A DNA stretch of 45,035 bases from the NCBI RefSeq assembly GCF_009791395.1, contig NZ_WSZK01000029.1, forward strand, positions 1 to 45,035, given 5' to 3'. The translations under genes and the position numbers were made by a program. Within the stretch, counting starts at the first letter, position 1. Each line of letters begins with the position of its first letter. Below, one piece after another: positions 35,313-39,388 of this stretch. This DNA comes from Halomarina oriensis (lineage in GTDB: Archaea; Halobacteriota; Halobacteria; Halobacteriales; Haloarculaceae). The notes below the pieces were generated by a model, which was not told the DNA's origin, ran no database searches, and saw only the letters and a program-made list of their open reading frames with translations.

Positions 35313-35495
35313 CTACCCGACCGCGACGCGCCACGTCCCGTGGGTCGGACACCAGTACGTCGCGGTGTGGAGTCGCGGGCAGTCGTCACCGCAGGTCGGA
35401 CAGTCCAGCGAGTCCGGTTCGTGGTCGGCCGAGACGCCCATCTCGGCGTACACCTCGCGCCACCCGCCACTCGGCGACCGTCGGTCGTCGGTCAT
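35313..35495 (-). CDS. small zinc-finger protein (second gene of pair)
   Basis: A 60-residue protein with zinc ligands in DCPTCGDDC and CPTHGTW (CPxCG-type box plus Cys-His). The N-terminal third is a short helix-forming stretch, GGWREVYAEMGV. The ATG at 35495 overlaps the stop of the gene before it by four bases (ATGA), so the two are translated together. Longer readings up to 35567 are rejected. CPxCG microproteins are common in haloarchaea; most have unknown targets. Confidence 0.7.
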   Translation of the reverse strand: MTDDRRSPSGGWREVYAEMGVSADHEPDSLDCPTCGDDCPRLHTATYWCPTHGTWRVAVG

Positions 35496-35719
35496 CGCCG
35501 GGCCTCCGTCTCTCGACACCGGGGACAGCCCTCGACGAGCGTCGCGTCGGTCGATTCGAGGCCGCACCGCTCACACCGGTAGTAGTAGTGGTCGAGGTGA
35601 CCGTACCGGTCGTAGCCGGCGTGCGGGCCGGTCACCACCGACGGTGACCGGTCGCTGGTGCCGTGGTCGTCGTGGCCCGTCGGGATTCGAGGCTGTCGGT
35701 GGGTCTGGTTACCTGCCAT
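35492..35719 (-). CDS. small zinc-ribbon protein (first gene of pair)
   Basis: A 75-residue protein. The C-terminal half carries two Cys pairs, YRCERCGLES and EGCPRCRETE, spaced like a zinc ribbon, preceded by a Tyr-rich patch (HLDHYYY). The N-terminal ~40 residues are His/Asp/Ser-rich and likely unstructured. It overlaps the following zinc-finger gene by ATGA. No clear TATA box is seen close upstream. Both proteins could form a small nucleic-acid- or protein-binding module. Confidence 0.65.
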   Translation of the reverse strand: MAGNQTHRQPRIPTGHDDHGTSDRSPSVVTGPHAGYDRYGHLDHYYYRCERCGLESTDATLVEGCPRCRETEARR

Positions 35720-36172
35720 GCGTACTCTCCGTGGACTCGGCGGTCGGGTGCTGGAACACCCGGCGCGGGTCGCGCGCGTCGCCGATGCACTGTCGCCGGT
35801 GTCCCCCGGCAGGACTGCCCGGAGCGTGGGGTCCTGCTGACTGGTGGGAGACGACTGGAGACAGGGGACCGACGCGCAAAAGGGGGCGGCTAGCTCGGTG
35901 AAAGTGAACCGTCGTGAACGTACTGGAGGGCGTTCTCGCGGTACTGGGCGGCTCGCTGAACAGTTTCACTCGGCTTCCCCGACCGCACCGCTACGGGAGT
36001 CCGCCCGGCGACCGGTGTCGCTCTCGGCGCCGACGGTGGGCGAGCAGCCCGGACCCGCCTACATAGGTGAATGTTAACTATCGTCAGGGGACGCCCAGAG
36101 GAACCGCTCGTGGTCCTACCCGTCGGCGGCGTGACCGTGTCGGTGTCGGGAGACCACGGCAGGATGGAACTC
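35720..36172. other. gene-poor 450-bp region before the S74 gene
   Basis: This divergent intergenic region holds no convincing gene. Short ORFs on both strands lack family features. A GTGAATGTTAACTATCG stretch near 36068-36084 may be the TATA region of the exported S74 protein gene, giving a leader of some 60-70 nt. GTTAAC also occurs before the importer operon and the fadD gene. Confidence 0.4.
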
Positions 36173-37963
36173 ATGGACACCAACGACCGGGAGTCGAGTG
36201 GAGACGGAATCGAGTCGAGTAGGGAACGGGGAGAGGAGGGTGAAAGCGGGGGGGCCGCCGCCAGGGAGCGACGCGGCGTGCGCCCGCTGTCACGCCGTGC
36301 GGCGCTCGCCGTGCTCGGCGTAGGCGGGGTCGGAGCCCTCGGCATCGGCAGGACGGGCGCTCGGCAGTCCAGGCCGACCGGCCGACCCTGGAACGGGGAC
36401 GTGGACGCTCGCGGGAACTGTCTCCTGAACCTCGGCTGTCTGGCGATGGCGCGCAACCCGGCGAGGATTACGGACTTCGAGGGACCGGGGTTGCGTATCG
36501 ACTCTCGGGGGGTTCTCTCGGTGACCGTGGCCGACACGCGGACGCTCGTCTCGGACAGCGACGGGTCGCCGGACGACGTGGAGGCGAGTGACGTCACCTT
36601 CGGCACGAACCTCTCGGTGACGGACAACGGGAACGGGCAGGTCCGTGTCGACGCCGTCGGTGCGTCGCCGTGGACGGACGCCGACGGCGACACGCTCCTC
36701 GAACTCGCCGCGTTCGACGGTGTCGACGTCGACACCGTCGTCGCGGACGCCGTCGAGACGCCGCTGGTCGGGACGCGGACGGCCACACCGTTCGAGGTGG
36801 TCGTCGAGGACGAACGGGTCCTGCTCGTCGAACGCGGGCGGGACGAAGACAGTCCGAACGTGGTCGCGGGCTCCGCGAGCAACACGGCGTTCGACGACGG
36901 CGGAAGCACCGTCGGTGGCGGCGGCACCCAGTTCGACCCGAACCGGGCCGGACCGTTCGGGACGGTCGGTGGTGGACGGGGAAACGTCGCCACCGCTCGG
37001 TTCGCCACCGTCGGCGGTGGGAGCGGGAACACCGCCTCCTCGTCCGCCAGGGGGCCGACCGTCGCGGGTGGCGAGAACAACACCGCCACCGACCAGCACG
37101 CGACGGTGGGCGGCGGGCAGAGCAACCGCGCCGAGTCCGGCCACGACACCGTCGCCGGCGGGCAGAACAACGAGGCGTCGGGTGGGAACGCGACGGTGGC
37201 CGGCGGGAACAGCAACACCGCTGGCGGGTCGGGGGCGGCCGTCGGCGGCGGTGTCCTCCACAGCGCCACCGGCGACCACGCGACGATTCCCGGCGGCGAG
37301 CGCAACACCGCCGCCGGGAACTACTCGTTCGCGGCGGGACTCACCGCGAACGCGGCCGACGACAACGCCTTCGTCTGGAACGACGGGTCACAGTACCACG
37401 ACGTCGACGGCGACGGTACGCCGGACGGGTTCTCCTCGGCTCAGGACGTCGCGGGGTCGGGGGTCACCGGCGAGGAGACGTTCAACGTGAGCGCGAGCGG
37501 CGGCGTCCGGTTCGTCACCGGGCCGAACAGCGTCACGTACGTCCCCGGCGGGTCGACGGGGTGGTCGACGACGTCGACCGTCGCGGCGAAGACCGACGTC
37601 ACCCCCGTCGACCCGCGGGCGGTCCTCGACGGCGTCCTCGACGCACCGGTCTCCACCTGGGAGTACGTCGACGAGAACGGCGAGGGCCGAGGAGTCCGGC
37701 ACATCGGGCCGATGGCCGAGACGTTCCACCGCATCGTCGACGTCGGCGACAGCGACGCTCACATCAACAGTGTCGACGCCGACGGGGTCGCACTCGCCGC
37801 GATTCAGGGTCTGGCCGCCCGACTCGACGAGACGGCCGAGGAACTCCGCTCGGAACTGGCCGCCCGTGACGAGCACGTGGAGACACTGGCCGCCGAGAAC
37901 GACCGACTGCGCGAACGACTCCGGGCCGTCGAGGACGCCACGCCGGACGACGGCGGGGCCTGA
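36173..37963 (+). CDS. Tat-exported YadA-like repeat protein with C-terminal peptidase S74 domain
   Basis: A ~596-residue protein. A twin-Arg signal lies at residues 41-42 (LSRRAALAVLGVGGVGALGIG) after a long acidic lead-in. Residues ~85-225 are beta-rich. Residues ~227-395 are about nine Gly/Ala/Asn-rich units (TVGGGxGNTA, TVAGGxNNxA) like the YadA-type head of trimeric adhesins. Residues ~468-570 match the intramolecular chaperone (peptidase S74) of phage tail spikes: Ser468 and Lys473 keep the spacing of the self-cleavage dyad, then HIGPMAETFH and NSVDADGVALAAIQGLAARL. The last ~50 residues are a heptad coiled coil. It probably trimerises, releases the chaperone and forms a surface fibre. 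ATG at 36071 and 36164 are alternative starts. Confidence 0.78.
   Translation: MDTNDRESSGDGIESSRERGEEGESGGAAARERRGVRPLSRRAALAVLGVGGVGALGIGRTGARQSRPTGRPWNGDVDARGNCLLNLGCLAMARNPARITDFEGPGLRIDSRGVLSVTVADTRTLVSDSDGSPDDVEASDVTFGTNLSVTDNGNGQVRVDAVGASPWTDADGDTLLELAAFDGVDVDTVVADAVETPLVGTRTATPFEVVVEDERVLLVERGRDEDSPNVVAGSASNTAFDDGGSTVGGGGTQFDPNRAGPFGTVGGGRGNVATARFATVGGGSGNTASSSARGPTVAGGENNTATDQHATVGGGQSNRAESGHDTVAGGQNNEASGGNATVAGGNSNTAGGSGAAVGGGVLHSATGDHATIPGGERNTAAGNYSFAAGLTANAADDNAFVWNDGSQYHDVDGDGTPDGFSSAQDVAGSGVTGEETFNVSASGGVRFVTGPNSVTYVPGGSTGWSTTSTVAAKTDVTPVDPRAVLDGVLDAPVSTWEYVDENGEGRGVRHIGPMAETFHRIVDVGDSDAHINSVDADGVALAAIQGLAARLDETAEELRSELAARDEHVETLAAENDRLRERLRAVEDATPDDGGA
36850..37350 (+). repeat. 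coding repeats, YadA-like head units
   Basis: About nine imperfect units of 14-17 codons encode Gly-Gly-Gly/Gly-Gly-x-x-Asn patterns. They are protein repeats inside the S74 gene, not a CRISPR array: the spacing varies and the frame is kept. Confidence 0.75.
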
Positions 37964-38366
37964 GACGCCGGCACGCCAGTCGGGGGCGCGCTCTCCCACG
38001 CGACGCCTCACGACGTGCCGGCGACACCTCACCCGGTCGCTGCCACGGCCGTCCCGCCGAACCTCCACGACACGGAACCGGAGTCAGAACGACACGGGAC
38101 GTGGCGCGAATCGCCCTTCGACCTCGTGTTCGTCGCCGTCGCCGAACTCGCACACGGCCTCGGAGAGTACCTCCCGGTGGCCGGCGTGTCCCTCGCTGTC
38201 GCGCCGTTCGGGACGGCCCCGACGGACGTGGCCGCAAACGCGGTGTACGGCCCGACCTCTCGCCCGTTGGTCGCGTTCGAGCGTTCGCACACCGGCGACC
38301 GCCCGGTGAACTTCCCGCGAGCGCCTGGCGAACTCAGAGCGGGGTTACGGCGGGTGGTTCGTGGAC
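37964..38366. other. gene-free 400-bp region between the S74 gene and hisF
   Basis: The region lies between convergent genes and needs no promoter. Two ORFs cross it, one on each strand (38015 plus; 38029-38292 minus), but neither has family features, and the plus one runs antisense into hisF. I see no repeat, RNA gene or T-run terminator. Confidence 0.5.
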
Positions 38367-39176
38367 TCAGCGCCGGACGGGAACGCCGTGGTCCGCGAGG
38401 TACGCCTTCGTCTCGTCGATGGTGTACTCGCCGAAGTGGAAGATGGAGGCGGCGAGCGCGGCGTCCGCGCCAGCGTCGAACGCCTCGCGCATGTGCTCTG
38501 GACTGCCCGCACCGGAGGAGGCGATGACCGGCGTCGAGACGGCGTCACAGACCGCGCCCGTGAGCGGCAGGTCGTAGCCGTCTTTCGTCCCGTCGGCGTC
38601 GATGGAGTTGACGAACAGTTCGCCCGCGCCGCGTTCTTCGGCCTCGGCCGCCCACGAGACGACGTCGATGCCCGTCCCCTCGCGGCCGCCCTTCTTCGTA
38701 CACTCGAACCAGCAGGACTCGCCGTCGACCTGCTCGTAGTGCTCGCCGGCCTCGTCGTAGCGCCGCCGGGCGTCGACGCTGATGACGATACACTGGTTGC
38801 CGAACGCTCGTGCGCCCTCGGTGATGAGTTCGGGGCGTTCGAGCGCCCCCGTCGTGATGGAGACCTTGTCCGCACCGGCCCGCAGCGTCTCCTTGATGTC
38901 CTCGCGGGTCCGGATGCCGCCGCCGACGGTCAGCGGGATGAAACACTCGTCGGCCACCGCCGAGACGACCCCGAGCATCGTCTCGCGGCCGTCGGCGCTC
39001 GCGGTGATGTCGAGGAAGACGAACTCGTCGGCCCCGGCCGCGTTGTACTCGCGGGCGAGTTCGACCGGGTCACCCGTGTACTGGAGGTTCTCGAAGTGGA
39101 CGCCGGTGTAGACCGCCGGTTCGCCGTCGTCGTCCACGTCCACGTCGATACACGGGATGATGCGTTTGGTCAGCAC
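38367..39176 (-). CDS. hisF: imidazole glycerol phosphate synthase subunit HisF
   Basis: A 269-residue TIM-barrel cyclase of histidine synthesis. It uses ammonia from HisH to form imidazole glycerol phosphate and AICAR. The catalytic Asp residues are in IPCIDVD and NSIDADGT; phosphate-binding loops are [10 protein letters not shown] and [10 protein letters not shown]. Relative to bacterial HisF it has a small acidic insertion ([16 protein letters not shown]). The start is GTG at 39176, giving the family N-terminus [12 protein letters not shown]; the ATG at 39206 adds a non-family extension. It follows a 61-residue gene by 26 bases. Confidence 0.95.
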
Positions 39177-39202
39177 GTGCGGGCCTTCGCGGCCCGCTCT
39201 GT

Positions 39203-39388
39203 TCACGATTTCGACCCGTCCCCGAGAACCTCGCGTATCTCCGCCTCGCTCAACACGTCCACGAGGTCAGCGCCCGCCTCGTAGCGTCGGAGCTGTTCGG
39301 TGTCCAGCACCGTCCCCAGGTCCTCCTCGTCGAGACGTGCGAGCAACATCCGGTCCAGGTCCGCCGGGTCGTAGCCGGGAATCGACAT
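39203..39388 (-). CDS. small acidic protein upstream of hisF
   Basis: A 61-residue, strongly acidic, mostly helical protein (DLDRMLLARLDEEDLGTVLD, VDVLSEAEIREVLGDG). I do not recognise the family. A TATA-like CGACTATTGC at 39405-39415 sits about 23 nt before its ATG, and hisF follows 26 bases after its stop with a weak GTG start. hisF is therefore probably translated from this transcript. Coding potential is supported by the promoter and the Glu/Asp pattern. Confidence 0.6.
   Translation of the reverse strand: MSIPGYDPADLDRMLLARLDEEDLGTVLDTEQLRRYEAGADLVDVLSEAEIREVLGDGSKS

Follow-up and report, generated by a model that had tools for sequence, protein, structure and literature searches.

The closest described counterparts of the protein reported here are the S74 subgroup of Bdellovibrio MAT fibres, the ICA domain of MyRF, the tail-fibre chaperones of phages and the trimeric autotransporter adhesins YadA and UspA1. 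MAT fibres are cellular, exported proteins whose tips have been swapped and which end in an S74 domain; they carry an SDxxxK motif, a conserved N-domain of ~130 amino acids and beta-helix tips, are located on the surface and no longer cleave when altered by S782A (PMC10769870). MyRF is an ER-membrane transcription factor with an SDxRxK motif. Its cutting requires a trimer and is abolished by S587A and by K592A but not by R590A (PMC8326128).

Here we describe a gene of the haloarchaeon Halomarina oriensis whose product, judged by sequence, appears to be an archaeal S74 fibre that is exported by Tat and has UspA1-type heads, a variant of known fibres. We think it probable that the product is a folded, S74-chaperoned trimer that is exported through Tat, cuts itself at Ser468 and serves as a cell-surface adhesin, acting like the Bdellovibrio MAT fibres. 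We found no description of S74 fibres on archaeal cells in the open-access library searched, and NCBI already labels some members of the family 'tail fiber domain-containing protein'.

The likeness to MATs, drawn from their published description, extends to tips that exist with and without S74, as they do in haloarchaeal fibres (PMC10769870). Unlike MATs, the fibre is predicted to leave by Tat, carries UspA1-type heads and an S-[TAS]-x-x-x-K motif, and has an archaeal host. Because S-T-V-A-A-K stands in place of SDxxxK, we do not file the protein as a MAT, although we propose that it works in a MAT-like way. With phage chaperones of the endosialidase/T5 type (PF13884; 3gw6) it shares the domain family and its C-terminal position, but its S74 domain is not in a virus and groups with bacterial plasmid fibres.

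A single fibre gene inserted beside hisF

The window, by which we mean the whole stretch of 45,035 nucleotides analysed (contig NZ_WSZK01000029.1), contains the following features around the gene.

36173..37963, + strand: complete fibre gene, 596 amino acids plus stop (ATG at 36173, stop codon at 37961-37963)
35978..38365, no strand: lineage-specific insertion with the fibre gene alone; congeners have 73 bp (genome G056) or other ORFs here
35313..35977, no strand: genus-conserved block, left flank of the insertion, from comparison with congeners
38367..39206, - strand: hisF, right flank of the insertion (Pfam His_biosynth, 9.9e-77), in 8/8 genus genomes

The reading frame is intact and stays open 5' as far as another ATG at 36071, which would give 630 amino acids, so that either ATG may be the start. 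GC content by codon position is 71/56/89%, and the genome holds one copy. The 2.4-kb insertion is absent from congeners: in G056 just 73 bp lie between the left-hand block and hisF, and other congeners carry different ORFs there. Elsewhere in the genus the block, whole or in part, and hisF border this site with no fibre gene between them; the insertion is therefore specific to this lineage and places a single gene among core genes. The neighbours are an enoyl-CoA hydratase, an AMP-ligase, an RpoL-like protein, HisF, PurL and TFB, HisF alone being identified by profile search and the rest by reading translations. No virion or phage genes were seen among them, as the preliminary description had said. 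The genus genome G057 has an S74 relative (L122) at another place, not at hisF.

Over its 665 bp the left-hand block shows 68-78% identity to its counterparts in the nearest congeners, and the remaining ones retain part of it. It is mostly without a convincing gene (one 75-aa ORF), borders a variable insertion site and gave no match in an Rfam search.

A gene found at this site in 1/8 genus genomes might be a recently acquired, high-turnover accessory gene that is functionless now and heading for decay, and some relatives are indeed broken, by stops (L052, L053, L055 and L059) or by an insertion (L107). The window copy, however, is intact, with a strong codon-position bias and a complete catalytic dyad, and we regard decay as improbable.

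Architecture of the predicted fibre

From the N-terminus, the protein consists of a polar n-region, a Tat signal, a module that we call WN, a beta-rich stretch, head repeats, a second beta stretch, the S74 domain and a coiled coil.

36284..36361, + strand: twin-arginine signal, residues 38-63 (PLSRRAALAVLGVGGVGALGIG...), from sequence, preceded by a 37-residue polar n-region
36386..36523, + strand: 'WN' N-terminal module, residues 72-117 (WNGDVDARGNCLLNLGCLAM...ITDFEGPGLRIDSRGVL), from sequence comparison
36854..37351, + strand: YadA/UspA1-like head repeats, residues 228-393, from a PDB match and 45-nt repeat spacing
37352..37573, + strand: beta-rich stretch before the predicted cut, residues 394-467; two strands of low confidence in AF2
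37574..37777, + strand: S74 chaperone/peptidase core, residues 468-535 (Pfam match 472-521), from PF13884 and AF2/Foldseek
37574..37576, + strand: Ser468, predicted nucleophile, Ser in 14/14 rows of alignment A1
37589..37591, + strand: Lys473, predicted general base at Ser+5, from alignment, with the spacing of MyRF S587/K592
37769..37939, + strand: C-terminal coiled coil, residues 533-589; a single long AF2 helix, mostly at pLDDT 90-98

The signal (SRRAALAVLGVGGVGALGIG) combines SRRAAL with a hydrophobic stretch at residues 40-58, by sequence pattern, and the genome has three TatC domain matches; twin arginine, hydrophobic stretch and Tat machinery are thus all present, as expected of a Tat substrate. 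The n-region shows no obvious coiled coil in the window fibre. Several other Tat S74 fibres do have a coiled-coil-like n-region before the signal, which fits assembly before export. We found no precedent for the export of a trimeric fibre through Tat.

The WN module is shared with a Tat S74 fibre on a Halalkaliarchaeum plasmid (L114/L142), the Tat coiled-coil protein L207 and five Tat beta-helix proteins (L200-L203, L205). The last five are pectin-lyase-like and sit inside conserved sugar ABC-transporter clusters; no conserved partner gene for the module was found.

The heads match UspA1 structures in the PDB (phmmer; 3pr7, E 2.2e-25; 3ntn, 1.9e-7). They repeat every 15 amino acids, or 45 nt, with an autocorrelation of 0.32 against at most 0.21 in 99% of shuffles, and AF2 places beta strands every ~15 residues, with pLDDT mostly 60-85 at residues 261-390. 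The full-length model, built from a two-sequence alignment, has a mean pLDDT of 44.9 and is poor outside the heads and the helix; a fold search with it returned nothing meaningful. The predicted cleavage would leave residues 394-467 at the new C-terminal end of the fibre.

Whereas the heads resemble those of YadA and UspA1, there is no outer membrane, export differs and the C-terminus is an S74 chaperone with a coiled coil. Pfam found no YadA-anchor match in the protein, which is therefore not a trimeric autotransporter.

S74 fold, catalytic dyad and predicted cleavage

The S74 domain matches PF13884 at residues 472-521 with 24.1 bits, above the gathering cutoff of 22. An AF2 model of residues 383-596 from alignment A3 (22 rows) has pLDDT mostly >90 over the S74 core and the coiled coil and is poor before them. 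Foldseek returned the ICA domain of MyRF (7dc3; probability 1.00, E 0.01) as its first three PDB matches, followed by the phage chaperone 3gw6 with a probability of just 0.13; in a viral library the top match and many of the 12 matches with E<=0.001 carry S74 or tail-fibre names. PDB profile searches with A1 and A3 gave coiled coils, a weak 7dc3 match and chance matches. A profile match above cutoff, a Ser–Lys pair spaced by five and an S74 fold with a C-terminal coiled coil, probably the trimerisation helix, place the domain in the S74/ICA family. MyRF shares the fold, the spacing and the coiled coil, yet here the domain would end an exported fibre.

The predicted cut lies between Thr467 and Ser468. 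Serine and lysine are both invariant in A1, an alignment of 14 haloarchaeal S74 domains, and both are kept in 44 of 48 haloarchaeal domains in a wider set; three of the exceptions are truncated or damaged frames, and the fourth, L058 (the same gene as L119), has Ala and Arg. Among 29 domains from phage contigs, 19 have Ser and Lys, three have Cys and Lys and seven have a gap at one or both positions. Alignment A3 excluded the Cys forms, and its Ser invariance proves nothing by itself. Cys replaces the catalytic Ser in the phage domains of L063, L068, L079 and similar contigs.

The residues between the pair diverge from the canonical S-D-x-R-x-K. The preliminary description, which gave the gene, Ser468 and Lys473 their correct coordinates and recognised the dyad spacing, reported Thr and Val in place of the usual Asp and Arg; Thr is indeed at +1 and Val at +2, but the canonical Arg is at +3, where this protein has Ala. 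Most haloarchaeal members read S-[TAS]-R-x-x-K, with T, A or S, and almost never Asp, at +1 and Arg at +2. As Asp is rare after Ser across the family, its absence argues little against cleavage, and, as MyRF needs its Ser and Lys but tolerates R590A, the missing Asp and Arg are no strong argument against the predicted activity.

The S74 domain could instead be just a folding chaperone or trimerisation cap that no longer cuts, so that the fibre retains its C-terminal coiled coil. A degenerate SDxRxK (S-T-V-A-A-K), with Val where relatives usually have Arg at +2, is compatible with this, as is the persistence as a fibre gene of L058/L119, with its Ala and Arg. Against it, the residues indispensable in MyRF are kept across wide divergence in those 44 of 48 domains while their neighbours vary, and we hold a purely chaperoning role to be rather unlikely.

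Distribution and ancestry

A PF13884 search of this genome overlooked the gene, probably through its first-pass filter, and negative family searches of that sensitivity were therefore given no weight. Searches with the window protein and A1 as queries found some part of the protein in 36/146 genomes and 13/22 genera of the same family. The S74 core (S74 profile, E below 1e-27) occurs in 30/391 genomes of the class; most of the 124 genomes matched in that search, including all but a few of the weak matches, showed the coiled coil only and were not counted. In a phylum-wide sample of 295 genomes every match fell within the same order. The distribution of the S74 core in haloarchaea is patchy. 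At L107:6900-8700 an S74 fibre gene is apparently split by a TnpB-type insertion.

The preliminary description had suggested a domesticated tail-fibre module and a search for homologues in haloviruses. No virus encoding the fibre was found in INPHARED or IMG/VR: the window protein (P0001) had no IMG/VR match, and A1 retrieved just S74-domain relatives in phage contigs, where matches of about 27-40% identity span S74 alone or S74 with the end of the heads. In bacterial plasmid proteins the match runs from the heads into S74. A tree of 58 S74 cores (110 columns) groups the haloarchaeal rows with the bacterial plasmid rows (98/97), apart from 15 phage-contig rows; it includes only four bacterial rows, so that transfer may have run in either direction. 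Together, the missing viral homologue and this grouping give the tail-fibre derivation no support as worded and suggest that the nearest visible ancestry is a fibre family shared with bacterial cells, with an older phage origin possible. Bacterial proteins with heads and S74 include Allomeiothermus silvanus WP_013159675, Herpetosiphon ABX07727 and Deinococcus QL22 WP_249394982, which are named 'tail fiber domain-containing' or hypothetical and are 29-37% identical from the heads into S74, although the matches do not reach the window N-terminus. We found no description of these three in the library searched.

A fibre belonging to a virion or tail-like particle, from a provirus remnant or an eCIS-like system, and not anchored to the cell, has to be weighed here, because S74 with a fibre architecture is typical of phage tails, the N-terminus of one signal-less relative resembles Mtd (21.8 bits, below the threshold of 26.3), another S74 relative is next to a tail-tube gene of gp19 type on a Natronosalvus plasmid, and eCIS fibres can bear S74 tips (PMC12923769). 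The window gene, in contrast, has a Tat signal, lies outside any virus or provirus gene cluster as the sole gene of an insertion between core genes, at a site that is empty in congeners, and has no INPHARED or IMG/VR homologue, and single export is not normal for virion fibres; a particle fibre therefore seems to us a poor candidate.

A mosaic family with a membrane partner in one branch

Beyond the preliminary description, we found that the fibre is one of a haloarchaeal family of patchy distribution, whose members have exchanged N-terminal modules and tips, and that a related branch has a membrane partner. Three kinds of N-terminus precede the same heads and S74: a Tat signal, the signal-less NVP type ('YNVPxxGxxDWHxPLNxNF', the source of the Mtd_N match above) and the signal-less GVLG type ('GVLGxNxxxGTPIGVxG'). 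All three occur within the ten-row clade that includes the window protein (99/95), so N-termini have been swapped. Pattern matching assigns a Tat signal to 18 S74 fibres of the neighbourhood set. Canonical SDxRLK domains sit on the same heads in L102 and L133 (PF13884, 54.6 and 57.2 bits), and Tat fibres without S74 carry tips that are C1q-like (L182, with a C1q match just under cutoff), beta-helix-like or other. Tips, like N-termini, are swapped, and the fibres are mosaics; eCIS fibres offer the same choice of C1q or S74 tip (PMC12923769).

Two loci are of note. L133:5867-19222 encodes at least four paralogous head-repeat fibres with differing C-termini, one a canonical S74 (SDARLK). At L143:11169-12477, the Natronosalvus plasmid locus mentioned above, the S74 fibre is signal-less and immediately preceded by the gp19-type tail-tube gene (PF06841, 6.5e-29); ~2000-aa beta-propeller proteins flank the pair, with no other tail genes in view.

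In the related branch, a recurrent neighbour is a Sec-type protein with an ectodomain of ~170 amino acids (alignment A2) and usually a C-terminal membrane segment; two such proteins have CARDB domains. The ectodomain occurs in 30/382 haloarchaeal genomes, counted on the isolated ectodomain because the neighbour cluster 'c1' mixed partners with unrelated histidine kinases. All 13 Tat S74 fibres with the post-signal motif G-x-[LIV]-G-[TL]-x3-[PR]-[LVI] have a partner within 7 kb on the same strand, against none of five without it (Fisher 1.2e-4), with the motif written post hoc, after the sequences had been seen, and the counts including near-copies (L099, L121, L123) and one locus twice (L102, L110). 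L112 and L126, which were missed by the Tat pattern, have neither motif nor partner. Loci with the partner but no S74 frequently have, as the upstream gene, a Tat fibre that ends in a different tip and bears the motif itself or a variant of it (L179, L180, L182, L187, L189, L193).

The partner in L099, L121 and L123 forms one protein with a histidine kinase, with 7TM, PAS and HATPase matches shown for L099, and the fusion could possibly act as a fibre-coupled sensor. The fused genes (L099:10466-13294, L121:11495-14329, L123:10811-13720) adjoin the S74 fibre, and a second histidine kinase follows. Distant partner relatives occur in elements resembling the lemon-shaped virus LSV-48N; the L189 partner matches an LSV-48N protein (tblastn, 7e-21) mostly outside the A2 ectodomain. 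L185-L193 and L199 are apparently integrated elements with partner-like spikes related to LSV-48N CDS0012, some pairing a spike with a Tat fibre. The A2 domain had no match in IMG/VR.

The window fibre has no motif and no partner (best E for A2 in its own genome, 0.09) and carries the WN module instead. We tentatively propose, at somewhat less than even confidence, that haloarchaea have a system of surface fibres built from modules, namely trimers exported by Tat in which both the tips (heads plus S74, C1q-like, beta-helix or coiled coil) and the N-terminal docking modules can be exchanged. In one branch G-x-[LIV]-G-T-x3-P-[LV] would dock to the membrane partner exported by Sec; this partner is a 7TM-PAS-histidine kinase in three genomes, where it would be a fibre-coupled sensor, and has distant relatives in lemon-shaped-virus-like elements. 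The window fibre would represent a partnerless branch with the WN module.

Proposed mode of action and significance

For the adhesin that we favour, three chains would assemble in the cytoplasm by means of their C-terminal S74 domains and coiled coils, and the head repeats would wind into a three-stranded beta-coil. The folded product would leave by the Tat route. After trimer formation, Ser468, activated by Lys473, would cut before itself and release the piece made up of S74 and coiled coil; what remains would be a stable fibre whose C-terminal tip is newly exposed. The WN module, the Tat signal region or both may tether the fibre to the envelope, and the heads or the tip may bind a partner cell, a glycan or a surface.

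This adhesin reading, which the preliminary description had also entertained for a protein with the twin-arginine signal, YadA-like heads and S74 domain seen again here, is favoured by heads that match trimeric UspA1, by the S74 fold, by a dyad kept while +1 varies, by the lack of virion genes nearby or of a virus homologue in INPHARED and IMG/VR, and by the cellular precedent of the Bdellovibrio MAT fibres. We count against it the missing Asp at Ser+1 and Arg at +3, the dyad lost in L058/L119, and the NVP- and GVLG-class S74 fibres, which have no visible signal, so that export is not universal in the family.

If the proposal is correct, fibres processed by S74 would be known from archaeal cells too, with Tat as their export route, and one could test directly whether a folded trimeric fibre can pass through Tat. 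In the related branch, the partner gene and docking motif make testable how such a fibre is held at the surface, and the kinase fusions whether its binding is signalled.
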